From an uncultured Mesorhizobium sp. (lineage in GTDB: Bacteria; Pseudomonadota; Alphaproteobacteria; Rhizobiales; Rhizobiaceae), in assembly GCA_950071955.1 (NCBI GenBank), contig CATMOC010000043.1, positions 1-13,109 of the forward strand: a DNA stretch of 13,109 nucleotides. The letters run 5' to 3'. Each line of letters starts with the position of its first letter. The stretch's first letter is position 1. The notes beneath the pieces were generated by a model that was given only the letters and a program-made list of their open reading frames with translations, searched no databases and was not told the DNA's origin. The position numbers and the translations under genes are program-made. Positions 644 to 13,109 of this stretch are shown here, piece after piece.

Positions 644-712
644 GATCGTCCTGTCCTGCCGAACTCAACGGTTGGATTTCGAGCATAGCGCGGAAGGAAC
701 GCCCGCCCTGTC

Positions 713-730
713 ACCTTGCGGGGGACTGCC
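713..730. promoter_or_regulatory. Putative operator, copy 1 of a shared motif
   Basis: ACCTTGC followed directly by GGGGGAC (720-726) and TGCC. It lies in the 110-base gap between the left-edge P450 start (643) and the DUF1330 stop (754), 77 bases upstream of the P450 start codon. It shares ACCTTGC with the copy at 4203 and TCACC..GCGGGGGAC with the copy at 6534. A binding role is inferred from recurrence only. Confidence 0.45.
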
Positions 731-753
731 GCGGGCTCGGCCTCGGGCGTGCC

Positions 754-1242
754 TCAGTGCCGCGGCAATCCGCTCTCGACCCAGCGCGCGAGCCCATCCT
801 CGACATCGCTCCGGTCCGCAGCATCCGGCAGCTGTGGGTTAAGCCGCAGCAGGTGATAGGCGGCAAGCGCCACCGTTCGGTGATGGGCGACAGCCGCGTA
901 GGCGGCCGACTGCGACATTTCCAGCAGCGCCTCCAGCGACGGGTAAGACATGACGAAGACCTCGTCCCAGCGCTGGTCCTCGGGCCCGTTCACCATGCAT
1001 TCGAATTCGCCGGTCCAGACCACCCGGGCCCCGGCGCCCAGAAGCAGCGGCCTCACGCCTTCCTTGTAGGTGCGATAGGCGTCGGCGCCGCTCGTCTCCG
1101 TCCCGTCGGCATAGCGGGCCACGGGGCGGTAGCGCACGAGATTGAGCATGTCGACCCGGCCCGGCCTGCGCAGCGACCGGAACGCATCGACTTGGGCGCG
1201 TGACCGGAAGAGCGGATGATCCGTTGGCAGCGCTTCGTCCAT
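754..1242 (-). CDS. DUF1330 family protein (dimeric alpha/beta-barrel)
   Basis: A 162-residue soluble protein. The core from about residue 28 to 130 fits the DUF1330 family of the dimeric ferredoxin-like alpha/beta-barrel superfamily: a first strand VDMLNLVRYRP, an AYRTYKEGVRPLL helix, a second strand with W-x-G-E-F, then DEVFVMSYPSLEALLEM and a helix of short repeats (SAAYAAVAHHRTVAL). No catalytic role is established for the family. Its ATG (1242-1240) overlaps the stop of the upstream P450 (1244-1242) by one base in the string TGATG, so it is translationally coupled to that P450 and last in the SDR-SDR-P450 operon. The C-terminal 30 residues extend past the usual domain. A small accessory enzyme acting on the P450 product or substrate is my inference. 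Confidence 0.75.
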   Translation of the reverse strand: MDEALPTDHPLFRSRAQVDAFRSLRRPGRVDMLNLVRYRPVARYADGTETSGADAYRTYKEGVRPLLLGAGARVVWTGEFECMVNGPEDQRWDEVFVMSYPSLEALLEMSQSAAYAAVAHHRTVALAAYHLLRLNPQLPDAADRSDVEDGLARWVESGLPRH

Positions 1243-2531
1243 CAGGACGCGCCGGTATGGCGGGGTTTCCCGAGCACGACGGGAAGCGATCTGGGCGCGC
1301 GGAAGACGTAGGTGTAGGCGTGGTCGATCCGGGCGCCTTCGGCGAGCCGCGCGTCGGGGAACCGCGCCGTGAATTCCTCCAGAATGATCTTCATCTCGAG
1401 GCGGGCGAGCGGCGCGCCGAGGCAGACATGCTTGCCGTTGCCCATGGTCAGGTGCTTGCGTGAATTCTTGCGCCGGACGTCGAAGGTCTCCGGGTCCTCG
1501 AATTGCGCGTCGTCGCGATTGGCCGAACCGAAGGAGAGGATGATGTCCTGGCCAGCGGGAATATGGACGCCCCCCCCCTCGATGTCGGCGAGCGTGCGCC
1601 GCCGCCAGCCGATCACGGCGCCGCTGTAGCGGAATGCTTCCTCCACCGCCAACGGGATCAGCGACCGGTCCGCGCAGATGGCGTCCCAGTTGTGACGGTA
1701 GGTCAGGAGCATGCGGAAGGCATTGGTGAGCTGGCTCGTCGTGGTTTCGTGGCCGGCGAAGAGAACGCCGTATACCACCGTGGTCAGTTCGTTCAGCGTC
1801 AGCACGCTGTCGTCGCCGTTGCGATAGGCCAGCAAGGCGCTGGCAAGATCGTCCTTCGGATTTTCCATCCGGTCGCGCACGAGGTCGACGCAGTAGTGCC
1901 AGAAGTCGACCATGTCCTTGGCGCCGCTGACCTGCTGGTCATAGGTGGACGGACTGAAATTCAGGATGGTGCGGGTGCCCGACCATGCCTTGACCTTCTC
2001 CATGTCCTCCTGCGGAACGCCGAGGATCATGAAGAGAACCTGGACGGGCAGTTCGTAGGTGAAGTCCGCCAGCAGGTCGACGGTGCCGCGACCCTCGATC
2101 CGGTCGAGCGCCTTGCGGACGATCTGCCGGATCTGCGGCTCCATCTTCGAAAAGGTTCTGATGTTGAGGAACGACGCGGACGCCATGCGCACGCGTGTGT
2201 GGCGTTCGCCGTCGCAGTTGGACTGGACCTTCTCGGCGGCGAATCCGCCCTTCTTCATGATCGCGAGTGCGTCCTCGTGGACGGGCGTGGCCGAGTCGCT
2301 GGTGTTGATCGCCGAGATCCTGTCATGGTCCTGGAGGATCGCCATGACGTCGTCATATCGCGTCACGATCCAGTAGCCGGTCTCCTCATCGTAGAAGACC
2401 GGCCGTTCGCGCCGCGCGTCGGCCATCTCCTCGTAGATGCTCTCGTGGTAGTAGGGGCTGAACCCCGCCTCGGCGCCGGAAAACGGGCACCCGGAAGTGG
2501 CGGTCGTGTCATGCGTTTCGGCGTTCGCCAT
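1242..2531 (-). CDS. Cytochrome P450, CYP116-like heme domain without fused reductase
   Basis: A complete 429-residue P450. Visible motifs: CPF near residue 15; C-helix HTRVR at 111-115; I-helix oxygen-activation motif AGHETT at 259-264; K-helix E298-x-x-R301; heme ligand Cys370 in MGNGKHVCLG. Segments such as PVFYDEETGYWIVTRYDDV and ICADRSLIPLAVEEAFR resemble the CYP116 family, whose B members carry a fused FMN/ferredoxin reductase; this protein stops after the heme domain, like CYP116A, so it needs external redox partners. The residue opening the heme loop is Met363 where most P450s have Phe. The start has GGGAG eight bases upstream. It follows the SDR at 2573-3343 after 41 bases and overlaps the DUF1330 gene by one base, so all are one operon. 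A nine-base G run in its coding strand (1570-1578) encodes Gly-Gly-Gly. Confidence 0.95.
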   Translation of the reverse strand: MANAETHDTTATSGCPFSGAEAGFSPYYHESIYEEMADARRERPVFYDEETGYWIVTRYDDVMAILQDHDRISAINTSDSATPVHEDALAIMKKGGFAAEKVQSNCDGERHTRVRMASASFLNIRTFSKMEPQIRQIVRKALDRIEGRGTVDLLADFTYELPVQVLFMILGVPQEDMEKVKAWSGTRTILNFSPSTYDQQVSGAKDMVDFWHYCVDLVRDRMENPKDDLASALLAYRNGDDSVLTLNELTTVVYGVLFAGHETTTSQLTNAFRMLLTYRHNWDAICADRSLIPLAVEEAFRYSGAVIGWRRRTLADIEGGGVHIPAGQDIILSFGSANRDDAQFEDPETFDVRRKNSRKHLTMGNGKHVCLGAPLARLEMKIILEEFTARFPDARLAEGARIDHAYTYVFRAPRSLPVVLGKPRHTGAS

Positions 2532-2572
2532 CTTGCTTCTCCCTTTGGCGCGATGCGGTTTCCGCGATGCCC

Positions 2573-3343
2573 TCAGCCGGGTGAAAATCCCGAATAGAGC
2601 GCCATCTGGCCGCCATCATTGTTCATGACGAGCCCGGTCACGTAGGACGCCTCGTCGGACGCGAGGTAGAGCATGGCGTTCGCCTGCTCCTCCGGCCTGC
2701 CAATGCGGCCGAGCGGAATGCGCCGGCGTCGCTCGACGAAGCGGTTGGCGTCGAGCGCCTCCATGTCGCGGATCATGTTGGTCTCGGTAAGACCCGGGCA
2801 GAGGCAGTTCACGCGAATGCCGTGGCTCGCCCACTCGACGGCCAGCGCCTTGGTCAGACCGGCCGCGCCATGCTTGGAGGCGATGTAGCCCACGTCTCCG
2901 GGAAAGCCCGCGAAGGCGGCGTTTGAAGAGACGATGACGATCGCGCCGCTGCGGTTCGGGATCATGCTCTGGATGGCCGCGGCCCGCGACCAGTAGAAGG
3001 GTGCGTCGAGATTGACGCCCATCGTCCGGCGCCAGGCGTCGTACTCGACCGCCGGCTTGATCGTGGAGATGCCCGCGCAATTGACGAGCACGTCGACGCG
3101 GCCCTGGCGCGAGACGACCTCGCGGACGCGTTCCCGCGCGACTTCTTCGTCCGAGACGTCGCCCGGGATCGCAAACGCACGGCCGCCCGCCTCTTCGACC
3201 TGACCGACCGCCTCGGCGACCCTGTCGGGCACGAGATCGTTGATCGCGACGATCGCGCCCTCCGCGGCGAACATCCGCGCGGCGGCGAGGCCCATGCCGG
3301 AACCTCCCCCGGTGATGACGACGACCCTGTTCTCGAAACGCAT
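2573..3343 (-). CDS. Short-chain dehydrogenase/reductase (SDR), tandem copy A
   Basis: A 256-residue classical SDR, an NAD(P)-dependent alcohol/ketone oxidoreductase with a Rossmann fold. Visible: cofactor loop TGGGSGMG at 11-18, Asp36 at the end of strand two (favours NAD), GDV at 61-63, NCAG at 88-91, and the complete catalytic tetrad Asn111, Ser140, Tyr153 and Lys157. The start is the ATG at 3343 rather than a longer in-frame extension, because GGGAGGAGGG lies just upstream and the length then equals that of the neighbour. It lies 28 bases downstream of the SDR at 3372-4142, which it matches along its whole length (same 256 residues, shared DAPFYWS, DVGYIA, RFVERRRR), so the pair is a tandem duplication. 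Being directly ahead of a P450, it probably oxidises an alcohol of the pathway. Confidence 0.95.
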   Translation of the reverse strand: MRFENRVVVITGGGSGMGLAAARMFAAEGAIVAINDLVPDRVAEAVGQVEEAGGRAFAIPGDVSDEEVARERVREVVSRQGRVDVLVNCAGISTIKPAVEYDAWRRTMGVNLDAPFYWSRAAAIQSMIPNRSGAIVIVSSNAAFAGFPGDVGYIASKHGAAGLTKALAVEWASHGIRVNCLCPGLTETNMIRDMEALDANRFVERRRRIPLGRIGRPEEQANAMLYLASDEASYVTGLVMNNDGGQMALYSGFSPG

Positions 3344-3371
3344 TGGCCCTCCTCCCAGCGGCGCGGCGTCT

Positions 3372-4142
3372 TCAGGCGGGCGACCACCCGGAGGAGAGCG
3401 CGATCTGTCCCCCGTCGACGTTGAGAATGGCGCCGGTGATGTAGGACGCATCGTCGGAGGCCAGGAACGCCACGGCCTTGGCGATCTCCTCAGGACGCGC
3501 GGCGCGGCCCATCGGCACGCGGCGGCGCCTCTCGACGAAGCGATCGGGATCGATGGCTTCCATGTCCTTGATGATCTGCGTGTCGGTGAAGCCGGGGCAG
3601 ATGCAGTTGACCCTGATGCCGTGCTTGGCCCATTCGATGGCGAGCGAGCGCGTCAGCCCCAGGCCGCCGGCCTTCGCGGCGATGTAGCCCACGTCGCCCG
3701 GATAGGCCACGTGGCCCGCCAGCGAGGAGATGTTGACGATGGCGCCACCCTTGCCCGGGATCATCGTGAGCGCGCCCGCCGCCTGGGACCAGTAGAACGG
3801 CGCGTCCAGATCGACACCGGTGATCCGCTCCCACTCGGAATACTCCTCCGCTGGCTGGATCGTCGCGATGCCCGCATTGTTGATGAGGATGTCGATGCGC
3901 CCGCAGCGCGCGATGACCTCCTTCACGCTCTTCTGGGCCACGTCCCGGCTGGAGACGTCGCCCGGGATCGCGAAGGCCTTCCCGCCCGCGGCCTCGATCT
4001 CGCTCACTGCCTTGGCCGCCGTTTCCGCCTTGATGTCGTTGACGGCGACGGTTGCGCCTTCCGAGGCGAAGAGCTTCGACGTCGCGAGCCCCATACCGGA
4101 ACCGCCTCCGGTGATGACGACGACGCGGTCCTTGAAACGCAT
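3372..4142 (-). CDS. Short-chain dehydrogenase/reductase (SDR), tandem copy B
   Basis: A 256-residue classical SDR and first gene of the operon SDR-SDR-P450-DUF1330. Visible: TGGGSGMG at 11-18, Asp36 after strand two (NAD preference), GDV at 61-63, NNAG at 88-91, Ser140, Tyr153 and Lys157. The tetrad position that is Asn111 in the sister copy is Asp111 here (GVDLDAPFYWS). The C-terminus (NVDGGQIALSSGWSPA) parallels that of the sister. The start has CGGAGGT six to seven bases upstream. Two copies of the GGGGGAC-type motif lie 40 to 80 bases upstream, so this is where the operon is likely controlled. Substrate is unknown; a ring or side-chain hydroxyl generated by one of the P450s is my inference. 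Confidence 0.95.
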   Translation of the reverse strand: MRFKDRVVVITGGGSGMGLATSKLFASEGATVAVNDIKAETAAKAVSEIEAAGGKAFAIPGDVSSRDVAQKSVKEVIARCGRIDILINNAGIATIQPAEEYSEWERITGVDLDAPFYWSQAAGALTMIPGKGGAIVNISSLAGHVAYPGDVGYIAAKAGGLGLTRSLAIEWAKHGIRVNCICPGFTDTQIIKDMEAIDPDRFVERRRRVPMGRAARPEEIAKAVAFLASDDASYITGAILNVDGGQIALSSGWSPA

Positions 4143-4181
4143 GGGGTACCTCCGGTTGGCTCTGTCTTGCGATTTTCTATT

Positions 4182-4196
4182 CTTGCGGGGTACGCC
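4182..4196. promoter_or_regulatory. Putative operator, variant copy upstream of the SDR operon
   Basis: CTTGCGGGGTACGCC differs from the copy at 716-730 (CTTGCGGGGGACTGCC) by one substitution and one missing base. It lies 23 bases from the better copy at 4203, in the same orientation, so the two form a direct repeat of about two helical turns. Position is 40 to 54 bases upstream of the SDR start at 4142. Part of it (GGTAC, 4189-4193) also pairs with GTACC at 4201-4205 as a short inverted repeat. Confidence 0.35.
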
Positions 4197-4202
4197 GTCT
4201 GT

Positions 4203-4223
4203 ACCTTGCCGGGGGACATTCCC
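4203..4223. promoter_or_regulatory. Putative operator, copy 2 of the shared motif
   Basis: ACCTTGCCGGGGGAC followed by ATTCCC, in the 127-base gap between the DUF1289 gene and the SDR operon. GGGGGAC is at 4211-4217, 69 bases upstream of the SDR start codon. CCGGG..CCCGG arms make this copy nearly palindromic. No gene fits in the gap; on the minus strand an AT-richer stretch between this site and the start (around 4170-4182) could hold the -10 region. Confidence 0.45.
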
Positions 4224-4269
4224 GGTCGCGTCGCCACCCGGCAGCGATCATGCACGACCAATGCCGAGG

Positions 4270-4455
4270 CTATCGGCCTTCCGTTTCCAGCGACTTCAAC
4301 CGCAGCGGCAACTCGGCTCCGATCCGCTCGCGTTCCTCGTCCGGCAAGTCGATCCAGGAGAAGACCTCGCGGACAGTCCTTCCGCATCCGATACAGAAGC
4401 CGGCCTTGCGGTCCTGCTTGCAGATGCGGCGGCAGGGGGTTTCGACCGGTGTCAT
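4270..4455 (-). CDS. DUF1289 family small four-cysteine protein
   Basis: A 61-residue protein whose N-terminal half carries Cys8-x3-Cys12-x8-Cys21-x2-Cys24 (PCRRICKQD...FCIGCGRT), followed by an amphipathic stretch with W34 and the ending LPDEERERIGAELPLRL. This is the DUF1289 signature; the cysteines are expected to bind a metal or an iron-sulfur cluster, but no function is established. The start chosen is the ATG at 4455, 16 bases after the stop of the EthD-like gene; the same frame stays open further upstream but would overlap that gene, and DUF1289 proteins are this short. The ribosome binding site is weak, suggesting coupling to the EthD gene. It is last in the CYP199-like P450 operon, an unusual place for this family. 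It is not a recognisable ferredoxin. Confidence 0.85.
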   Translation of the reverse strand: MTPVETPCRRICKQDRKAGFCIGCGRTVREVFSWIDLPDEERERIGAELPLRLKSLETEGR

Positions 4456-4471
4456 GCCGCGAGCGGTCCGG

Positions 4472-5176
4472 TCAACCGAGCGGGATCTCGAGCGGATCGA
4501 CGAGCAGCCGGTGGGATGGCGGGCTGCCCACGAAATTCTTCTCGTCGGCCCGCAGCTCGGCCATGTAGGACGGAGCGGACCATGCCTTGCGGGCGTGCTC
4601 CAGACTGTCGAACCAGAACTCCGAAATGCCGTCGTAGGGGACGAAATCCTCCGATGTCTTGACCGTCTCCGGCAACACGTGGTGTTGCACATAGCGGTTG
4701 CAGAATTCGGCGAAGGCGGCGTTGCGGGAAACCAGCGTCCCGTGGACCTCCTTGTAATGCTTGCTGAACTCGGCGGGACTGGAGCCGGCCCGCCGGCGCG
4801 GCAGGCTCAGGATTTTCACGCCCCGTGCGGGGCCGTCGAACACGACGTTCTCGCGGGCGAAGAACTGCACCATCCGGGAAGGATCGGCGAAGTCGTCCTG
4901 ATGGGGACCGACGGTCTTGTTCAGCGGGTTGTCCCGGATGGTTTCCGGAGCGGTGAACTCCGGGCCGACGTCGATCTCGACGAGGCCATCCCAGAGGGGC
5001 TCGGGGATCAGGTCGTCCACGGCCGGTTGCGCGCGGTTCTGGACATAGCGCCCAGCCATCGCGCGAAAGGCGCCGTCGCCCGCCAGCGCCTGCGCATGCC
5101 GACCCTTCCAGCGCTCCGCGAAGTCGTCGGCCGCGAGGCCGGACTTTCGCTTCAGGAAAATGAACTTCCGGATCAT
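4472..5176 (-). CDS. Protein with two tandem EthD-like domains
   Basis: A 234-residue soluble protein made of two ferredoxin-like repeats, about residues 1-110 and 117-230. Each repeat begins with a strand followed by the EthD-type helix: KFIFLKRKSGLAADDFAERWKGRHA at 4-28 and KILSLPRRRAGSSPAEFSKHYKEVHG at 121-146, both with F-x-x-x-(W/Y)-(K)-x-x-H. Each repeat ends with a YVQ strand and a W-D/E-F-W core. EthD was named for a protein required with a P450 system in ethyl tert-butyl ether degradation by Rhodococcus; its biochemical role is unresolved. Here it follows the CYP199-like P450 by 41 bases and precedes the DUF1289 gene by 16, so it is in the same operon. The start ATG has AGGAG about eleven bases upstream. 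Confidence 0.85.
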   Translation of the reverse strand: MIRKFIFLKRKSGLAADDFAERWKGRHAQALAGDGAFRAMAGRYVQNRAQPAVDDLIPEPLWDGLVEIDVGPEFTAPETIRDNPLNKTVGPHQDDFADPSRMVQFFARENVVFDGPARGVKILSLPRRRAGSSPAEFSKHYKEVHGTLVSRNAAFAEFCNRYVQHHVLPETVKTSEDFVPYDGISEFWFDSLEHARKAWSAPSYMAELRADEKNFVGSPPSHRLLVDPLEIPLG

Positions 5177-5217
5177 GTCTCGTCCCGCTCCTGGGTATCG
5201 TTCATGCCGCCAGGCGA

Positions 5218-6429
5218 TCAGGCCGAGGCGATCCGCAGCGGCAGCCTCTCCAGGATCCGCAACTGATTGTGGATCAGGTATCGAGGCTCGCCCGCGGGTT
5301 CGATGGCTTCGACCCGCGCGACCAGTTCCTTCAGCATGCACTCGGCTTCCATGCGCGCGACGTTCTGGCCGATGCAGTTGTGGTCGGCGGCACCGAACGA
5401 CATGTGGATATTGGCCGTGTCGCGCATCACGTCGAACTTGTCGGGATTTTCCCATTTGCGCGGATCGCGGTTCGCCGCGGTCGGGAACGTGGCGATCTTG
5501 GTGTCGCCCTTGAGGAAGAAACCGCCGAGCTCGGTGTCGCAGGCGGTCGCCCGGTACACGAGATGGTTCGGCGCAACCATGCGGACGGCCTCGTCCATCA
5601 CGGCGCGGATGCGATCCGGATGCCGCTTGAGCAGCGCCCACTGATCGGGATTTTCGGCCAGAAGCCGCAGGGCCGTGCTCATGCCGCTGATGGTGGTGTC
5701 CATCCCGCCCCGTACCAGCGAACGGGTGATGTTGAACGCGATGCCCGGCTGCAGTTCACCCGCCGCCTCCGCCTCGAAGAACGAGCCGGCGATCGAGCCC
5801 GGCTCGACGGCGTCGCCCTCGCAGGCGGCCATGAACCATTCCATGTACGGCTCGCCGACCTCCATCCCCTTGAAGTAGAGTTCGTTTTCGGGACCGGTCT
5901 GGTTGAAGGACATATAGCCGATCGCGCGGATGGCGGCCTCGTCGAAACGGATCCCCATGGCTTTGGGAAAGCCGCCGAAGACGACGGGCTCCACGAGATC
6001 GCGGACACCGTCGAACGCCCCCATCTTCACGATGCGGTCGACCGCCTCCTTGGCCTTCTCCTCGAATAGGCTTCGCCATTTCCGGATCACCAGCGGAGAC
6101 ATGATGCGGTTGGCGACGCGCCGCGTCTCGGTGTGCTGGGGCGGATCGACCTCCACCAGCGCGCTCGGCGGGCGACCGCGAAACTCGGGCCTGCGCGCGT
6201 CGGTGATGCCGACGCCGCTCGATGCGGTGAAGCGCGAATAGTCGGTGACGACCTCGCGCAGTTCGGCATAGCGGCCGACGCCGTAGACGCCGTACTTCTC
6301 GAAATAGACCACCGGACCGGCATCGAGCAGTTCCCGATTGAACGGAATTGGGTCCTCCAGCACGTCCATCGCGTAGGGATCGAGCGATACGACAGGCGCC
6401 TCGCGCACGCCCGTGGCTGTGTCGGTCAT
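5218..6429 (-). CDS. Cytochrome P450, CYP199-like (complete)
   Basis: A complete 403-residue P450. Visible: C-helix HTETRR at 99-104; I-helix RGGMDTT at 240-246 with the acid-alcohol pair Asp244-Thr245; K-helix E280-x-x-R283; heme ligand Cys352 in FGAADHNCIGQ. FEKYGVYGVGRY, the CIGQ heme loop and the RMEAE segment resemble CYP199A, which demethylates 4-methoxybenzoate. Arg86 and Ser89 in RPPS, and Arg236, fall where I recall CYP199A4 holding the substrate carboxylate, so an acid substrate is plausible. The heme loop is unusual: GAAD replaces the common GxGx. A longer in-frame start exists upstream, but the ATG at 6429 has GGAGAG eight to ten bases ahead and gives the usual N-terminus. It heads the operon with the EthD-like and DUF1289 genes and diverges from the DctP gene. 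Confidence 0.95.
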   Translation of the reverse strand: MTDTATGVREAPVVSLDPYAMDVLEDPIPFNRELLDAGPVVYFEKYGVYGVGRYAELREVVTDYSRFTASSGVGITDARRPEFRGRPPSALVEVDPPQHTETRRVANRIMSPLVIRKWRSLFEEKAKEAVDRIVKMGAFDGVRDLVEPVVFGGFPKAMGIRFDEAAIRAIGYMSFNQTGPENELYFKGMEVGEPYMEWFMAACEGDAVEPGSIAGSFFEAEAAGELQPGIAFNITRSLVRGGMDTTISGMSTALRLLAENPDQWALLKRHPDRIRAVMDEAVRMVAPNHLVYRATACDTELGGFFLKGDTKIATFPTAANRDPRKWENPDKFDVMRDTANIHMSFGAADHNCIGQNVARMEAECMLKELVARVEAIEPAGEPRYLIHNQLRILERLPLRIASA

Positions 6430-6493
6430 TGGCAGTCTCTCCGGACGACTTGGTCTCTCTGCGTGCCCGTGAACGTAGGCGACAACATTCCGC

Positions 6494-6510
6494 GCCAGAG
6501 TCCCCCGTGG
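6494..6510. promoter_or_regulatory. Putative operator, copy 3 (reversed), in the P450/dctP gap
   Basis: Read on the minus strand this is CCACGGGGGACTCTGGC, with GGGGGAC at 6500-6506, 71 bases upstream of the CYP199-like P450 start at 6429. It faces the opposite way to the copy at 6534, so the 180-base divergent gap holds one copy per gene. Outside GGGGGAC the match to the other copies is weaker. Confidence 0.35.
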
Positions 6511-6533
6511 CTGGGACGGCGCGGGCACAGAGG

Positions 6534-6555
6534 TCACCAAGCGGGGGACATTGCC
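6534..6555. promoter_or_regulatory. Putative operator, copy 4, upstream of dctP
   Basis: TCACCAAGCGGGGGAC followed by ATTGCC. It matches copy 1 at TCACC..GCGGGGGAC..GCCGCG and copy 2 at GGGGGACATT. GGGGGAC is at 6543-6549, 61 bases upstream of the dctP start codon at 6610. No gene fits in the gap. Confidence 0.45.
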
Positions 6556-6609
6556 GCGCGGGGCCGCGTGCTAGCGGAAAGTCGGGAAAAACCGACCATG
6601 GAGGAAAAC

Positions 6610-7647
6610 ATGCTGCTCAAGAAACTGGCCACGGCGGTGGCGGCCGTCGGCCTCGCCGCGCTTTCGGCCACGCACGCCTTTGCCGACACTGTGACGATCC
6701 GGTACTCGAACTGGCTTCCGCCGAGCTTCTTCCTCTGGGACGACGTCATCGAGCCATGGCTCGCCGACATCGAGAAGGTCACGGAAGGCCGGGTGAAGGT
6801 CGAAGTGGCGCCGAAGGTGGTGGGCACAGTCCCCGCCCAGTACGACGTGGTGCACGATGGCTTGGCCGACATGTCCTGGATGGTCGCCGGTTACACGCCG
6901 GGGCGCTTTCCCCAGATCGAATTCGGGGATCTGCCGCTGATCGGAACGAAGACCGCCGCGCGCGGACCGGTGATCGACAGGATGTACCGAAAGCACCTCG
7001 CAGACAACGGTGTCTTCGAGGGTGTCTATCCGGTTTCGCTGCTGTCGGTATCGCCACTGCAGATGGTGACGAAGGGCGCCAAGGTGGAATCGGTGGAGCA
7101 GCTGAAGGGAATGAAGTTCCGCAGCAGTTCGCCGACCCTGACCGAGGTCCTGAACCTGCTCGGCGCCGTGCCGATCCTGAAATCGGCCGCGGAGGCCTAC
7201 GAGATGCTCGCGACCGGCACGATCGACGGCCAGATCACCAACCTGAACACGATCCCCGGCTTCAACCAGCTCGACCTGATGGACGGCGTCTATGTCGTGC
7301 CGGGCGGGCTCGCCAATGCCGTCATCATCATGGGCCTCAATGCCGACAAGTGGGCGCAGATCTCCCCCGAGGACCAGAAGGCGATCATGGAGATTTCGGG
7401 CGAAGCCTTCGCGCGCAAGGTCGGCCAGGCTTACGACGACGCCGATGCCAAGGCGCTGGAGAGCATGAAGACGGCCGGCTACCACATGGGCGAGGCCACC
7501 CCCGAGGCGATCGAAAAGATCAAGACCACGCTCAAGCCGATCGAGGACGCATGGCTCAAGAAGGCCGAGGAGGCCGGACTGTCGAACGCCCCGGAAATCC
7601 TTTCGGAGTTCAAGGCAGAGGTCGCAGCCGAGGAAGGCACGAACTGA
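6610..7647 (+). CDS. dctP: TRAP transporter solute-binding protein, DctP family
   Basis: A 345-residue periplasmic binding protein of a tripartite ATP-independent (TRAP) transporter, which captures a substrate, usually a carboxylate, for ion-driven uptake. Residues 1-25 are a Sec signal peptide: KK near the start, an Ala/Val/Leu core, and an AFA cleavage site before Asp26. The mature protein has the DctP pattern: TIRYSNW, a middle segment KGMKFRSSS with Arg171 at the position that normally salt-bridges the ligand carboxylate, then AYEMLATGTIDGQITN. The start is the ATG at 6610, because GGAGG lies five bases upstream; an in-frame ATG four codons earlier would place that sequence inside the gene. 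No DctQ or DctM membrane subunit is adjacent, so it is an orphan binding protein here. It diverges from the CYP199-like P450 operon and ends at a strong terminator. Confidence 0.95.
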   Translation: MLLKKLATAVAAVGLAALSATHAFADTVTIRYSNWLPPSFFLWDDVIEPWLADIEKVTEGRVKVEVAPKVVGTVPAQYDVVHDGLADMSWMVAGYTPGRFPQIEFGDLPLIGTKTAARGPVIDRMYRKHLADNGVFEGVYPVSLLSVSPLQMVTKGAKVESVEQLKGMKFRSSSPTLTEVLNLLGAVPILKSAAEAYEMLATGTIDGQITNLNTIPGFNQLDLMDGVYVVPGGLANAVIIMGLNADKWAQISPEDQKAIMEISGEAFARKVGQAYDDADAKALESMKTAGYHMGEATPEAIEKIKTTLKPIEDAWLKKAEEAGLSNAPEILSEFKAEVAAEEGTN

Positions 7648-7717
7648 TCGGATAGGTTCACCAGCAGCCATAGGCCGACCCGTTCGGCCGGGCTGTCTCG
7701 CTTGCATAGGAATGCAT

Positions 7718-7752
7718 GGCCGGTCCCGGACCTGTTTCGGGACCGGCCTTTT
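7718..7752 (+). terminator. Rho-independent terminator of dctP
   Basis: A perfect 11-base inverted repeat, GGCCGGTCCCG (7718-7728) and CGGGACCGGCC (7738-7748), with a nine-base loop and a following TTTT. It starts about 70 bases after the dctP stop. On the opposite strand there is no T run, so it does not obviously end the converging permease transcript. The rest of 7648-7810 holds no recognisable gene. Confidence 0.9.
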
Positions 7753-7810
7753 CATGTTGGAAATCCGTGCCGAGGCCTTGCCGCGTTCGAACCCGCCGTC
7801 GGCACACGCG

Positions 7811-8710
7811 TTATCGGAGCGCCTTCGCGCGCCCCTTTCGTTCCGATGCCACCAGCAACAGGCCGCTGGCGACGATGGTGAGCGTGCCGGCAATCGTCCA
7901 GGCGTCTGGCAGGCTGTCGAAGATGATGTAGCCGAAGATGACCGTCCAGATCATGTGCACGTAGATGAACGGCGCGAGGAAGGACGCCGGCGCGATGCGG
8001 TAGGCGTGGATCAGAAGCCAGTGCCCGATCGCGCCGAATGCGCCGAGAGACAGGAGGATCGAAAGGTAAAAGCCGTCCGGCGGCAGCGAGCCCACGAAGG
8101 GCAGCGCCGGAAGGCCGAGGACGATGGCGACCAGCGGAGGCATGACGAACAGGCTCTCATGGCTCTCCGTGGCGGTCAGAAGGCGCGTCGCGATGATGAA
8201 GACGCCATAGGCCAGCGTCGCGGCGAATGCCATGACATGCCCGATGCCGAGCACGCCCATGCCGGGCCGGGATATGATGATCACGCCGCCGAACCCGATG
8301 ACCACCGCGACGATGCGCATCCAGTCGAGGGATTCCTTGAGAACAAGGCGGGCCAGCAATGTGACCCAGATCGGCGCGGCGAAGAAGATCGCGACGAATT
8401 CCACGAGTTGCAGCGTCAGGAGCGAGGAGAAACTCAGGATACCCGAGACGAACAGCACCACGCCGCGAAAGAGCTGGAGGCGCATGTTGCCGACGCGGAA
8501 GCGATCGCTGTTCACCCATGGGCGCAGGATGACCACGGCCAGCACGCCATGGGTGAAGAACCGCATCCAGTTGACGAACACCGGATGCACGTCCGCGAGC
8601 ACCAGATATTTGGCGCCCGCATCGTTGAAGGCGAACATGAAGAAGGCGCAGACGAGGAGAAGCATCCCCTTCAGCGGATTGGAAACCGCAGCCTCGGATC
8701 GGATCACCAT
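7811..8710 (-). CDS. EamA/DMT-family inner-membrane transporter
   Basis: A 299-residue integral membrane protein with about ten hydrophobic helices in two similar halves, the EamA (drug/metabolite transporter) pattern. The first half begins NPLKGMLLLVCAFFMFAFNDAGAKYL; the first EamA repeat ends with VVIGFGGVIIISRPG near residue 150, and the second ends with the helix AGTLTIVASGLLLV followed by a positively charged tail (SERKGRAKALR). The internal motif FFAAPIWVTLLARLVLKE is typical of the family. Members export or import small metabolites; the substrate here is unknown. The start ATG at 8710 has GGAGG five to six bases upstream. The SDR at 8826-9653 ends 115 bases upstream on the same strand, so they may be co-transcribed, and the pair converges on the dctP terminator. 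A link to pathway substrate or product movement is inference from position. Confidence 0.9.
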   Translation of the reverse strand: MVIRSEAAVSNPLKGMLLLVCAFFMFAFNDAGAKYLVLADVHPVFVNWMRFFTHGVLAVVILRPWVNSDRFRVGNMRLQLFRGVVLFVSGILSFSSLLTLQLVEFVAIFFAAPIWVTLLARLVLKESLDWMRIVAVVIGFGGVIIISRPGMGVLGIGHVMAFAATLAYGVFIIATRLLTATESHESLFVMPPLVAIVLGLPALPFVGSLPPDGFYLSILLSLGAFGAIGHWLLIHAYRIAPASFLAPFIYVHMIWTVIFGYIIFDSLPDAWTIAGTLTIVASGLLLVASERKGRAKALR

Positions 8711-8825
8711 GCGCCTCCAGCAACGGACGTCGTCCCCGGCGAGATAGCCCCATGACGATGCGGCCCCTCGTCCGGCGCAAGCTCCTCCTCCGGATCTCTG
8801 GCGGTGAAGGTTCGCTAGCGTCCGG

Positions 8826-9653
8826 TTATTTGTTGGCGAAGAACTTCTGCGCCATCAGGCTCTGGGACAGCCCGCCGTCGCAATTCAGTTCCTGTGCGGT
8901 TACGAAAGATGCCGCCGGCGAAGCCAGGAAGACGACGGTATCCGCCAGTTCTGTCGCGACGCCCAGCCGGCCGAGGGGGATCTTGGCCTCGCGCTCGGCG
9001 ATGATCTCGGGTCGCATGTTGGCGCGCGTCAGCGGCGTGTCGATCGTTCCGGGACTGACGACGTTGACGCGTATTCCGTCGGCCGCCCATTCCAGCGCCA
9101 TCTGGCGGGTCAGAGAAATCAGCGCCGCCTTGCTCGGCCCGTAGGCGCCACCGTTGGGATAGCCCCTGCCACCGGCCAGGGAGGAGATGTTGACGATCGA
9201 CGCGGACTTGCTCTTGCGCAGATGCGGCAGGCAGGCGCGTTCGAGAAGCAGCGCCCCTTCGACGTTGACGAGGAACGAGGTGCGCCAGTCGTCCAGGGAG
9301 CAGTCCTCGAGCGACCCGGGGAAGATCACGCCGGCCGAATTCACGACGATGTCGAGCTGGCCGAACCTTGCGATCAGTTCCGAAACCCCCGCGCCGATCT
9401 CGGACGCGACGGCGACGTCCATGGCGAGGCTCAAGGCCTCGCCGCCGTCGGCCTCGATCTTCTTCGCGACACCGTCCGCCGCTTCCTTGCGGCGGTCGGC
9501 GACCGCCACCCGGGCACCGTTTGCGGCAAGCGTGATCGCGGTCGCCTCGCCGATACCGCTGCCGCCGCCCACCACGAGCGCGACGAGGCCATCGAGCAGG
9601 GAATTCGACATCCAGTCGCGCGGGCGCGCCGGAAGCTCAGCCTTTGTTGCCAT
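8826..9653 (-). CDS. Short-chain dehydrogenase/reductase (SDR), third copy
   Basis: A 275-residue classical SDR. Visible: cofactor loop GGGSGIG at 29-35, Asp53 after strand two (NAD preference), MDV at 78-80, NSAG at 105-108, and the full tetrad Asn130, Ser158, Tyr171, Lys175. It is clearly more distant from the two tandem SDRs than they are from each other. The start chosen is the ATG at 9653, with GGAG about nine bases upstream; a later in-frame ATG (MSNSLL, at 9611) lacks a good ribosome binding site but would give a more usual N-terminus. The long extension ahead of 9653 is not coding. It diverges from the SnoaL-like gene across a 192-base gap and may be co-transcribed with the permease downstream. 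Confidence 0.92.
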   Translation of the reverse strand: MATKAELPARPRDWMSNSLLDGLVALVVGGGSGIGEATAITLAANGARVAVADRRKEAADGVAKKIEADGGEALSLAMDVAVASEIGAGVSELIARFGQLDIVVNSAGVIFPGSLEDCSLDDWRTSFLVNVEGALLLERACLPHLRKSKSASIVNISSLAGGRGYPNGGAYGPSKAALISLTRQMALEWAADGIRVNVVSPGTIDTPLTRANMRPEIIAEREAKIPLGRLGVATELADTVVFLASPAASFVTAQELNCDGGLSQSLMAQKFFANK

Positions 9654-9776
9654 TTCTTCGTCTCCGTTGAAGCGATTGTCCGTCGGTCGGTCCCCGTCTT
9701 CGTCACGGCCGGTTGGCGGCGAGGCACGGAGGCATTCGTCGATGCCTATCCACCGGTCGACAACCCATCTGTACCC

Positions 9777-9812
9777 GTGACGTGGGACTCCCTGACCGGC
9801 GGGAATTCCCAC
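9777..9812. promoter_or_regulatory. Putative operator and palindrome in the SDR/SnoaL divergent gap
   Basis: GTGACGTGGGACTCCC (9777-9792) resembles the reversed copy at 6494-6510: on the minus strand both read GAGTCCC followed by (A/C)CGT. GTGGGAC at 9782-9788 is 58 bases upstream of the SnoaL-like start. Ten bases further on, GGGAATTCCC (9801-9810) is a perfect palindrome, and GTGGGA with TCCCAC (9807-9812) make an inverted pair spanning both. This is the weakest of the motif copies. Confidence 0.3.
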
Positions 9813-9845
9813 TATGTCTCACGGACCGTCAGGAATGGGAACGTC

Positions 9846-10313
9846 ATGACCATGGAACCGACCCGTGCGGACGACTTGTCGCCGCAAGACCAAAGGGAAG
9901 CCGCGGTGCTGGGCTACTTCACCCTGCTCATGAAGCGGGACCTGGACAGCTTCGAAGCGCTCTGGCAGCCCGATGCGGTTCAGGAGATCCCGTTCGTCCC
10001 CGAGGGGTTCGGAAAATTCGTGACCTCGAAGTTCGACGGCCGCGACGAGATCATGGCGCATTACCGCGCCGCCTTCGCCAACCGACGTGACCATGTCTTT
10101 GTCATCGACGCCATCCACCGCACGGACGATCCGGATTGCATCATCGTGGAGGCGCATGCCCGCAGTCTCGTCGGCGAGACCGGCCGGGTCTACGAGAACA
10201 GCTATGTCTGTCTCTTCCGGCTGCGCGACGGCAAGCTCGCGCTGCTGCGCGAATACGTCAATCCGCTTCAGTTCATGAAGGCCTTCGGCGGCGGTTTCGA
10301 CGAACTCCGATAG
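9846..10313 (+). CDS. SnoaL-like / NTF2-fold protein
   Basis: A 155-residue soluble protein of the SnoaL/ketosteroid-isomerase-like NTF2 superfamily, cone-shaped folds that act as isomerases, cyclases, hydratases or hydroxylases. Visible: an opening helix VLGYFTLLMKRDLDSFEALW, the strand DAVQEIPF, a FDGRDEIMAHYRAAF helix (the common G-x-x-x-I/V-x-x-(F/Y) pattern), and alternating strands IIVEAHARS, YVCLFRLRDGKL and LREYVNP typical of the fold's end. The residues are too divergent to name a reaction. The start is uncertain: the ATG at 9846 has only a distant AGGA, and a second ATG lies two codons on. It stands alone on the plus strand, divergent from an SDR and convergent with the KstD-like gene only 15 bases away (10313 versus 10329). 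A role in an isomerisation step is inference. Confidence 0.85.
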   Translation: MTMEPTRADDLSPQDQREAAVLGYFTLLMKRDLDSFEALWQPDAVQEIPFVPEGFGKFVTSKFDGRDEIMAHYRAAFANRRDHVFVIDAIHRTDDPDCIIVEAHARSLVGETGRVYENSYVCLFRLRDGKLALLREYVNPLQFMKAFGGGFDELR

Positions 10314-10328
10314 GAGCGTCTCGGCTGT

Positions 10329-12014
10329 TCAGGCGTGCTCGGCTTCGGAAGCCGAGGCCTTGATGCCGGCAATGTCCCGGGCAGCGATGTAGCCGAACGT
10401 CATTGCGGGTCCGAGGCTCGAACCGCCGGCGGGATAGAGACCACGCGTCATCGAGTTCATGTCGAGACCGACCGCATACAATCCCGCGATCGCCCTGCCG
10501 TCGCCGTCGAGGACGCGGGCACTTGCGTCGGTCCGCAATCCCGCGACGGTGCTGAGGTCGCCCGGAATGAGCGCGATGGCATAGAATGGCGGTTTCAGGA
10601 TGGGCGCGAGGCTGGGATTCGGCTTGTTCTCCTGGTCGCCGCGGAAGCGCGAATGGGCGTCGTCCCCGCGCGCGAAATCCGGATCGCGGCCCTCCCTTGC
10701 ATGTTTGTTGAACCGTTCGACGGTCTGCTCGAGCGTGGCGGCATCCACCCCTATCCTTCGCGCCAGTTCCGCCAGCGTCGGGGCCTCGATCAGATAGCCG
10801 TTCTCCACCCAGCGGCGGACCGGATAGGGGAACGGGCGCGCCAGCCCCATGCCGTACGTGCGCAGGAACCGGCGGTCGGCAATCATGTGAACCTTCGAAA
10901 TACCCAGTTGCTGCATGGTCATCACGAAGTGCTGATAGGAATCGGCTTCGTTGACGAAGCGCCTGCCGGTGGGGTCGACCGCGATCGATCCGGGCATGTA
11001 ACGATCGATCATGATGTGCGGGAACCGCTTCACGGTTCCGTCCTTGTCCCGAACCTTGGAAACCGGGATGTAGATGCCGTTCGAAGGATTGTCCTCGACG
11101 AGTTCCCCGCCCGCGCGCACGCCCATCAGGACGCCGTCGCCGACATTCGCTTCGGGCTGGATCGACACGTGATCCCGCGCCATCGGGATGAACTTCTCGC
11201 GCATCTCCCTGTTGGCGCCGAAGCCGCCGCTCGCGAGCACCACGGCCGTCGCGGCAAGTTTCGTCTCCCGGCCATCCCTTTCCACGACCAAACCGGTCAC
11301 GCGGCCATCTTCCGTCAGGACCTCCTTCGCCGCCGTTTCGGACCACAAGGTCACGCCGGCATCGATGGCCGACTTCAGAAGCCGTCCGGCGAGCGCATTG
11401 CCGCTCACCAGCCGGGTGCTGCGGCCGTGGCGCAGCCTGTCCGCCATGTAGTTGGCGACCATCCGGGTGGTATGGATGAAGCCCGACCATGTCCTGAACG
11501 CCTTGCGCAGCGGGACGATGTCGGCACCCGCGACCTGCATGCTGTCGAACACGGTGAATTCCGGCAGCGGCCGGCGGAGCTTCTTGAAATAGGGGCCGAG
11601 CTTCGAGCCGTCGTACTCCCTGGCGAGGACGCCGCGGTAGCGGGAAGCGCCCGGCTTCGTGGGAAGATAGTCGGGCGTTGGCGTCGGCACGAACTCCAGT
11701 TCCGTGTCGGCCTCGACGTACTCGAGCATTCGTGGACCGTTGTCCACGAAGGCCTCGATCTTGGTTGCCTCGTAGTAGTTGCCAAGGCATGCCTTCAGAT
11801 ACTCGAGCACCTTGTCGCGGCTGTCGTCGACGCCGACCGACTTCATGTGATGATGGTTGGGGATCCAGGCCACACCTCCGGAATAGGCCGTGGTGCCGCC
11901 GAACACATCCGCCTTCTCGACCACGAGGACCTTCAGTCCGTGCTTGGCGCAGACCACGGCCGTGGTCATGCCGCCCGCTCCCGAGCCCACCACCACCACG
12001 TCGAATTCCGCCAT
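10329..12014 (-). CDS. FAD-dependent 3-ketosteroid-dehydrogenase-like oxidoreductase
   Basis: A 561-residue flavoprotein of the FAD-binding-2 family (fumarate reductase / KstD type). The N-terminus has the dinucleotide fold VVVGSGAGGMTTA at 7-19, VEK at 32-34 for the adenosine ribose, and GGTTAYSGGVAW at 39-50. A second FAD segment, VVLASGGFGANREM, is at 258-271. The C-terminus GLYPAGGSSLGPAMTFGYIA (525-543) closely matches KstD enzymes, which remove two hydrogens next to a ring ketone. Tyr116 (DYLP), Tyr360 (NEADSY) and Tyr527 (LYPAGG) fall near positions I recall as the active-site tyrosines of KstD. The start is the ATG at 12014, with GGGAG eight bases upstream; an upstream TTG six codons earlier is less likely. 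It diverges from the right-edge P450. The substrate may be a steroid, terpenoid or other cyclic ketone. Confidence 0.9.
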   Translation of the reverse strand: MAEFDVVVVGSGAGGMTTAVVCAKHGLKVLVVEKADVFGGTTAYSGGVAWIPNHHHMKSVGVDDSRDKVLEYLKACLGNYYEATKIEAFVDNGPRMLEYVEADTELEFVPTPTPDYLPTKPGASRYRGVLAREYDGSKLGPYFKKLRRPLPEFTVFDSMQVAGADIVPLRKAFRTWSGFIHTTRMVANYMADRLRHGRSTRLVSGNALAGRLLKSAIDAGVTLWSETAAKEVLTEDGRVTGLVVERDGRETKLAATAVVLASGGFGANREMREKFIPMARDHVSIQPEANVGDGVLMGVRAGGELVEDNPSNGIYIPVSKVRDKDGTVKRFPHIMIDRYMPGSIAVDPTGRRFVNEADSYQHFVMTMQQLGISKVHMIADRRFLRTYGMGLARPFPYPVRRWVENGYLIEAPTLAELARRIGVDAATLEQTVERFNKHAREGRDPDFARGDDAHSRFRGDQENKPNPSLAPILKPPFYAIALIPGDLSTVAGLRTDASARVLDGDGRAIAGLYAVGLDMNSMTRGLYPAGGSSLGPAMTFGYIAARDIAGIKASASEAEHA

Positions 12015-12091
12015 TCCCGATGCTCCCGACAATCGAAGACGCCGCGCCGCCCTGCCCCGGGGCTAGTTGGCGCGGCAGCATAGACTAGAAG

Positions 12092-12107
12092 CTTGCGGGA
12101 CACCGCC
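12092..12107. promoter_or_regulatory. Putative operator, copy 5 (degenerate), KstD side
   Basis: CTTGCGGGACACCGCC resembles copy 1 (CTTGCGGGGGACTGCC) with two Gs missing. GGGAC at 12097-12101 is 83 bases upstream of the KstD-like start at 12014. With the copy at 12117 it gives two motif instances 25 bases apart in the same orientation within this 188-base divergent gap. Confidence 0.35.
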
Positions 12108-12116
12108 TGCCCCCGC

Positions 12117-12132
12117 GCCGGGGGACTACCCC
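12117..12132. promoter_or_regulatory. Putative operator, copy 6, P450 side
   Basis: GCCGGGGGACTACCCC, with GGGGGAC at 12120-12126, 77 bases upstream of the right-edge P450 start at 12203. GGGG and CCCC flank a short centre, so like the copy at 4203 it is nearly palindromic. It lacks the ACCTTGC half. Confidence 0.4.
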
Positions 12133-12202
12133 AGGCCTCGTCCGATTGTAGCTTCCTGGGATCAGCCGTCGCCTCGTGATGCGGCGCAAGGGAGGTTAGC
12201 CC

Positions 12203-13109
12203 ATGAGCATGACCACGCAACCGACCGCCGGTGAAGGTTCCCACGGCGCGCTGCTCGAGCCGCCGGTGCTGGACGTCGACCCGTACTCGGTCGAGAACAT
12301 CCAAAATCCGTATCTCTTCTTCGAAGAGCTGAGGGAGACGGCCGCGGTCGTGCGGCTGAAGCCATACGGGGTGTACGTCACCGGACGCTACGAGGAGACG
12401 AAGGTCGTCCTTAACGATCACGACCGGTTCATGGCCAGCGCCGGCATCGGCATCGCCGACATCCGCAAGCCGGGCAAGTTCCGTATCCCGAACCGGCTTC
12501 TGGAGAACGACCCTCCGGGACACACCGAAATACGCAAGACTTTGAACAAGATCCTGTCGCCGCTCGCGGTCAGGCGGTGGCGCGACCATTTCGAGACGGA
12601 AGCGGCGATCTTCGCCGATAAAGTCGTCGAGATGGGAGAGTTCGACGGAGTCGAGGACCTCGCCGAGGCATACATCCTGCACGTCTTCCCCGAGGCGGTA
12701 GGCGTCAACCTGCCGCGGACGGAAGCGCTGGCGATCGGCGAGATGAGCTTCAATCAGGCAGGGCCATACAACGACCTCTTCCGCGCGGCGGAAAAGAAGG
12801 CAGAGCCCTATCTCGAATGGTATGAAAAGAGCGTCCGGCGCGAAGCGATGCGTCCGGGATCGATCGGCGAGATGCTCTTCGACGCGGAGGAGCGCGGAGA
12901 GTTCGAAAAGGGCGTGGCCTCCAACATCTGCCGCGCCTTCGTGCGTGGCGGGACCGACACCACCATCGCCGGTCTCGGATTTGCCCTCAACCAGCTCGCC
13001 CGCAATCCCGACCAATGGGCGATCCTCAAGTCGAACCCGTCCAAGTTTGCGCGCAACGCCTTCGAGGAGGCGATCCGCCACGAATCGCCTTCCTACGTGA
13101 ACTACCGGA
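12203..13109 (+). CDS. Cytochrome P450, CYP199-like (N-terminal part, cut by window edge)
   Basis: The first 302 residues of a P450, open to the window end. Visible: C-helix HTEIRK at 107-112; I-helix RGGTDTT at 248-254 with Asp252-Thr253; K-helix E289-x-x-R292. The heme-cysteine loop is beyond the edge. It is a paralogue of the complete P450 at 5218-6429: shared GVGITD/GIGIAD, EVDPPQHT/ENDPPGHT, EMSFNQAGP/YMSFNQTGP and the uncommon VRGGxDTT I-helix. At the putative carboxylate-binding segment it has R94-I-P-N97 where the sister has R-P-P-S, so Arg is kept but Ser is Asn, suggesting a related but different substrate. The start has an excellent GGAGGT six to seven bases upstream. It diverges from the KstD-like gene. 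Confidence 0.92.
   Translation, partial: MSMTTQPTAGEGSHGALLEPPVLDVDPYSVENIQNPYLFFEELRETAAVVRLKPYGVYVTGRYEETKVVLNDHDRFMASAGIGIADIRKPGKFRIPNRLLENDPPGHTEIRKTLNKILSPLAVRRWRDHFETEAAIFADKVVEMGEFDGVEDLAEAYILHVFPEAVGVNLPRTEALAIGEMSFNQAGPYNDLFRAAEKKAEPYLEWYEKSVRREAMRPGSIGEMLFDAEERGEFEKGVASNICRAFVRGGTDTTIAGLGFALNQLARNPDQWAILKSNPSKFARNAFEEAIRHESPSYVNYR

Follow-up and report, generated by a model that had tools for sequence, protein, structure and literature searches.

LuxR-type activators of catabolic pathways and LuxR regulons defined by a shared promoter motif have both been described before, and the HTH of DevR likewise belongs to the LuxR/NarL type. Among the former, TeiR of Comamonas testosteroni is, in the available portion of PMC8700777, a LuxR-type positive regulator of a catabolic pathway and thus resembles the regulator proposed here, yet it is described there as a kinase, unlike our candidate; the likeness is one of description, not of sequence comparison. 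The latter are represented by CrbR of Pseudomonas (ACTU motif), a LuxR-family activator whose inverted repeat was found by promoter comparison, as was the one reported below, but which, according to the excerpted text of PMC5715377, is a two-component response regulator with sites like GACC..GGTC, both of which differ from the present case. OsdR and DevR/DosR boxes are G-rich palindromes as well, with GGGGACGATCGTCCCC as a predicted OsdR site; in the sections available of PMC5069765, their arms are reversed relative to our dyad, i.e. the G-run lies outside and AC inside a 16-nt palindrome. With the LuxR/TraR-type activators of quorum sensing, our candidate shares a LuxR/GAF-like fold of the sensor domain in the structural model; it differs from them in that this domain has no Pfam match, and the 20-nt lux box differs from the operator considered here, which spans 17 or 18 bp and has GTCCC arms. 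No report of this dyad operator, of its LuxR clade or of their pairing was found in the open-access literature searched.

A catabolic gene cluster scattered over contigs

The window, i.e. the whole stretch of 13,109 nucleotides of an uncultured Mesorhizobium sp. that was analysed, is contig C43 of a fragmented genome (611 contigs, 70% complete). CYP199A4 was among the closest solved relatives of the one window P450 searched (phmmer, E 1.7e-82), and a window flavoprotein resembles 3-ketosteroid dehydrogenases. CYP199A4 acts on substituted benzoates, and by convention P450s belong to one family at 40% identity or more. Orthologues of the P450 at 5218-6429 (76-82% identity) occur in three other genomes among 199 sampled in the family, while four more of the 199 have relatives at 34-42% only. 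Gene-by-gene comparison of these three genomes (G032, G160 and G176) revealed a conserved cluster of roughly 60-75 kb, its borders set by eye, whose parts in the window genome lie on contigs C43, C134, C411, C27 and C70 and also on C460, C549, C487 and C451. Judged by Pfam matches and protein starts, the cluster contains P450s, SDRs, TRAP and branched-chain ABC transporters, EthD, SnoaL and CoA-handling genes. A regulator that looks Lrp-type beside a transketolase-like gene of about 800 aa, both identified by eye, is located within the cluster or adjoins it on G032:C1, G160:C2 and G176:C9; this pair had no match on the window-genome contigs compared gene by gene.

An inverted repeat behind a recurrent word

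The initial annotation had singled out the word GGGGGAC in the gaps of the window. Exact copies are indeed present at 720-726, 4211-4217, 6543-6549 and 12120-12126 on the plus strand and at 6500-6506 on the minus strand, with a sixth, also noted before, inside the SDR gene (3407-3413, minus strand). Five of the six are intergenic, as had been claimed, in gaps that make up 12% of the window by our own gene calls; gene borders, here and in the related clusters, come from a home-made codon-usage caller rather than a published one. A distance of 60 to 80 bases to the next start codon holds for most of them (77, 69, 71, 49 and 77 bases to the called starts); the value outside this range, 49, becomes 61 if ATG 6610 is the start. 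As a 7-mer by itself, GGGGGAC is not significantly enriched in the window, six copies standing against 3.02 ± 1.68 expected and 13 of 200 shuffles reaching six, and it was dropped as the unit of analysis in favour of a dyad. An extended one-arm pattern, TTGCNGGGGGAC with one mismatch, was also dropped, being rarer in the window genome (46 matches) than its reversed control (77).

What is conserved around the word, previously read as an extension of the match into its flanks, is the dyad GT[CA][CA]C-N7/N8-G[TG][TG]AC. In five of its six copies, GGGGGAC is one arm of an inverted repeat, GTCCCC-N5/N6-GGGGAC, of 17 or 18 bp, and one of these five has a changed letter in the opposite arm. The window holds five exact dyads (A-E in Table 1), whereas shuffling predicts 0.28 (0.11 + 0.17) for the window and 0.03 for its gaps. 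Dyad E is an additional site without GGGGGAC, and it accounts for one of three degenerate copies listed earlier, that at 9777; the other two, at 4182 and 12092, fall outside the dyad pattern. On G160:C2 (L060-L063), elements like CCCTCCCCACAAGGGGGAGGGGGAC that end in GGGGGAC are repeated in several gaps without being dyads of the GTCCCC/GGGGAC class.

Table 1. Predicted regulatory sites and target genes in the window
Feature	Position	Strand	Remark
dyad A, GTCCCCCGCAAGGTGAC, 17 bp	710..726	-	for P450 gene starting at 643, cut by window start
-10 candidate TATGCT	682..687	-	22 nt from dyad A
dyad B, GTCCCCCGGCAAGGTAC, 17 bp	4201..4217	-	for run SDR-SDR-P450-DUF1330, 4142 down to 754
-10 candidate TAGAAA	4174..4179	-	21 nt from dyad B
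dyad D, GTCCCAGCCACGGGGGAC, 18 bp	6500..6517	-	for P450-EthD, 6429 down to 4472
-10 candidate TACGTT	6472..6477	-	22 nt from dyad D
dyad C, GTCACCAAGCGGGGGAC, 17 bp	6533..6549	+	for TRAP solute-binding protein, 6598 or 6610 to 7647
-10 candidate TAGCGG	6572..6577	+	22 nt from dyad C
dyad E, GTCCCACGTCACGGGTAC, 18 bp	9771..9788	-	for SDR 8826-9653, perhaps EamA transporter 7811-8710
-10 candidate TAGGCA	9743..9748	-	22 nt from dyad E
dyad F, GCCCCCGCGCCGGGGGAC, 18 bp, one letter off pattern	12109..12126	.	divergent gap, KstD-like flavoprotein / P450
-10 candidate TAGCTT	12149..12154	+	22 nt from dyad F, towards P450 12203
-10 candidate TAGTCT	12082..12087	-	21 nt from dyad F, towards KstD-like gene
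SDR, first gene of SDR-SDR-P450-DUF1330 run	3372..4142	-	predicted target
cytochrome P450, CYP199-like	5218..6429	-	predicted target
TRAP transporter solute-binding protein DctP	6598..7647	+	predicted target
3-ketosteroid dehydrogenase-like FAD protein	10329..12032	-	predicted target
cytochrome P450, cut by window end	12203..13108	+	predicted target

Enrichment and conservation of the dyad

The 249 cluster gaps of five genomes including the window's (42,055 bases) contain 73 dyads, as opposed to 0.66 ± 0.75 in 200 shuffles, none of which held more than three. Sixteen of the 73 belong to a contig of the genome G984 that was fetched after the pattern had been fixed and counted over its entire 95 kb (17 matches, 16 in gaps, and nine pairs at 24 other spacings); in the other four clusters, 57 of the 62 matches listed are in gaps. 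Among gaps of at least 60 bp, 41 are divergent, 116 tandem and 19 convergent, and 23, 40 and 1 of them, respectively, hold a dyad, compared with 1 of 156 control gaps from 20 other contigs of the window genome, taken from its longest, up to 20 kb each, rather than drawn at random; the motif is therefore not equally frequent elsewhere in the same genome. A spacing test with GT[CA][CA]C arms gave 57 half-site pairs at 17/18 bp versus 10 at 24 other spacings in the cluster gaps of four genomes, and one and two pairs, respectively, in the gaps of 349,540 bases of other window-genome contigs. An iterative matrix built from gap seeds placed 93 of 119 hits in gaps, which amount to about a tenth of the sequence.

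Conservation between orthologous clusters bears out the earlier idea of a shared site: dyads recur in the related clusters, and in G032, G160 and G176 the orthologues of the P450 and the SDR are each preceded by a counterpart of the window site (dyad D and dyad B, respectively). Dyad A has one in G160 and G176, and no exact counterpart was found in G032.

Genome-wide scans with two mismatches yielded more sites than the reversed control in the window genome (85 vs 28), G160 (108 vs 34), G176 (131 vs 67) and G032 (79 vs 50), but also in G177 (89 vs 45) and G105 (64 vs 50), both of which lack the cluster and its LuxR gene. Part of the excess in G177 is a dispersed repeat, the hairpin TCTCCCCGCAAGCGGGGAGA, many copies of which on G177:C1 mimic the operator pattern. 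A further scan pattern gave 30 vs 22 in the window genome. Because of the excess in G177 and G105, whole-genome scans are weak evidence, and the argument therefore rests on the spacing and gap tests. A string common to six actinobacterial P450 loci, GTCCCATCTNTGGGGAC, was discarded, as it sits in a conserved reading frame.

Position of the dyad in the promoter

A TA that could begin a -10 box lies 21/22 nt from the dyad edge, on either side, at 43 of the 73 rhizobial sites, a phase first noticed in the same rows on which it was later counted, whereas other pairs of neighbouring offsets reach 4.0 on average and 8 at most; the remaining 30 sites are without it. In the window, all six dyads have such a TA towards the neighbouring gene, dyad F in both directions; on the far side of dyad E, no TA stands at this distance towards the SnoaL gene at 9846. 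Read after the phase had been noticed, the sites on two Sphingobium plasmids show TA at exactly 22 nt in 10 of 10 cases, equivalent to about six independent ones, since the four sites of pTK2 all recur among the six of pMI1. At four other plasmid loci (L192, L195, L196 and L203), the phase is present in two of seven sites and absent in five. An A follows the proximal arm in 81% of 53 oriented sites, and at the usual -35 distance the resemblance to TTGACA is confined to GAC, at 62, 42 and 38%.

With TA 21-22 nt from its edge, the dyad would be centred near -43, where a class II activator would sit; for the lux box, the text available from PMC7585371 gives 42.5 nt upstream. Judged by sequence context and predicted start sites, the dyad may cover the -35 region while keeping a constant distance to the -10 box, as the operator of a class II activator would. 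Both arm spacings (17 bp, as in dyad B, and 18 bp) share the -10 distance of 21-22 nt. Two spacings for one dimer are unusual.

Two regulator genes of the cluster

Two regulator genes, of the LuxR/GerE and MarR types, accompany the cluster; they were picked from protein starts and were the only ones submitted to Pfam, so that others may have been missed. The LuxR/GerE gene, on contig C134 of the window genome (G000:C134:5445-6284), encodes 279 aa with a GerE HTH domain (PF00196) at residues 205-259 (35.9 bits, curated cut-off 23.5). GerE is its sole Pfam match at E≤0.01; neither an autoinducer-binding domain nor an N-terminal receiver domain of the NarL/FixJ type was detected, and the predicted structure combines a GAF/LuxR-type sensor fold with a NarL/RcsB-type HTH. 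Of the 199 family genomes, the four that have this gene are also the four with the close P450 orthologue; among 384 other genomes sampled from the class, none has it at E≤1e-20. In 32 homologues, hand-chosen from 120 listed, the HTH region is 70-92% and the N-terminal part 26-47% identical to the C134 query. No exact dyad is phased to the luxR gene itself in the window genome, G032, G160 or G176.

The MarR gene (G000:C460:2746-3363, L121; MarR_2, 42.2 bits vs 27) has orthologues of 55-62% identity in four genomes besides the window's own, i.e. it occurs in 5 of 394 family genomes. Four of these five have the P450 orthologue, and the fifth, G984, was read for dyads only. In all five, dyads flank the MarR gene on both sides, and the upstream one is phased to the -10 box of a divergent hydrolase gene.

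Dyads at plasmid-borne LuxR loci

To tell apart LuxR and MarR, whose genes accompany the same rhizobial clusters, 17 plasmid loci around LuxR homologues, hand-chosen among the records listed, were searched, and six of them hold 17 gap dyads in total: four in Sphingobium TKS, six in Sphingobium MI1205, two each in Variovorax VAI-C, Diaphorobacter and Bradyrhizobium CB82, and one in Sphingobium TomTYG64. The other 11 loci contain none. Dyads are found at four of the five loci whose LuxR HTH is at least 59% identical and at two of the 12 where it is at most 53% identical; in Burkholderia arboris (L194), an HTH of 64% identity goes with 30 kb devoid of dyads.

In five of the six loci with dyads (L191, L193, L192, L196 and L195, with 4, 6, 2, 2 and 1 gap dyads), neither a search at E≤1 nor the gene tables revealed a homologue of the MarR protein. 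The search, confined to the plasmid loci rather than extended to the hosts' chromosomes, picks up close homologues and missed an annotated MarR gene in L201, and the plasmid gene tables are incomplete. The sixth, L203, has a MarR homologue at 28% identity. Variovorax VAI-C carries a MarR homologue (43.6% identity) 1.2 Mb away on the same plasmid, and the 30 kb around it (L190) contain no dyad of the pattern.

Which protein reads the dyads?

The initial annotation had proposed one regulator for the P450, SDR, TRAP and KstD units and could not name its family. A single regulator remains the best reading, dyads being rare elsewhere and recurrent in related clusters, and the sequence evidence points to the LuxR/GerE-type activator encoded on C134. 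We put at about 75% the probability that the cluster gaps hold operators of one regulon read by this activator from the same cluster, whose units the protein, bound to a pathway compound, would activate in step. Its dimer would bind the inverted repeat TGTCCCC-N5/N6-GGGGACA, the end of which lies 21-22 nt before the -10 box, and, occupying the place of the -35 box, would recruit RNA polymerase as a class II activator whenever the N-terminal GAF-like domain holds a compound of the pathway. As the gene sits in a catabolic cluster, the ligand is probably such a compound. The units so activated in the window would be the P450 gene reading down from 643, SDR-SDR-P450-DUF1330, the TRAP solute-binding protein, P450-EthD, the SDR with perhaps EamA, the KstD-like flavoprotein and the P450 gene reading up from 12203.

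The strongest competitor is the MarR protein of C460, which would bind the dyads and repress the cluster until a ligand arrives, while LuxR binds elsewhere. Palindromes are the binding sites of MarR dimers, the gene is tied to the cluster as closely as luxR (G032, G160 and G176 among its genomes have the P450 cluster), and dyads border it on both flanks throughout; MarR was accordingly our initial assignment, given up once dyads were found at LuxR loci without MarR. These loci make the LuxR protein the more likely reader, as does the fact that the dyad preceding the MarR gene is in phase with the divergent hydrolase gene. Against MarR also stand the loci of its distant homologues (L150-L180), of which 1 in 31 has a gap dyad, and the fixed dyad position with a poor -35 box, which is activator-like. 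We therefore regard repression by MarR through the dyads as unlikely, and MarR, encoded nearby, probably exerts an additional level of control.

Even less probable, to the point of being remote, are promoters of an alternative sigma factor, with GGGGACA serving as a -35 box rather than as half of a dimer operator. The frequent fixed distance between GGGGACA and a -10-like TA would suit them; a spacer of 21-22 bp is long for a sigma factor, and the distal arm, for which a sigma factor has no need, recurs at two spacings only. Chance clustering of G-rich words in GC-rich DNA would agree with the count of the 7-mer alone but is already refuted by the excess of dyads over shuffles in the cluster gaps, to which the later-fetched G984 contig contributes, and by the gap dyads of the six plasmid loci.

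A wider operator code

The LuxR/GerE reading extends to a broader proposal, which we consider evenly balanced between right and wrong: that GTCCCC-N5/N6-GGGGAC, placed near -43, is the single DNA code of a clade of GAF-LuxR catabolic activators, which frequently come with a MarR gene and in which the DNA-reading half hardly changes while the sensor half is free to diverge, and that this code is reused in different breakdown clusters of Rhizobiaceae, Bradyrhizobium, Sphingobium and Comamonadaceae. If this is true, the operator alone could reveal further pathways and their borders. For the present locus, a vague word repeat gives way to a testable operator code for which a candidate regulator can be named. 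The operator also helps to trace the cluster, including the parts scattered over other contigs of a fragmented genome. It could likewise be used to search for other catabolic clusters and supply promoter-regulator pairs for biosensors.

With regard to the pairing, the listings of MarR and of LuxR homologues share 19 sizes of the largest contig, among them 1994 bp and 5,061,081 bp (Sphingomonas oryzagri). On the basis of these 19 matching sizes, the two homologues may lie on the same contigs in other organisms as a two-gene regulatory pair. On plasmid 4 of Variovorax sp. SRS16 (L201), a MarR gene directly follows one of LuxR type, in the neighbourhood of DUF3237, VOC and hydrolase genes; this locus, which is without the present dyad, is perhaps a sister system that uses another operator.
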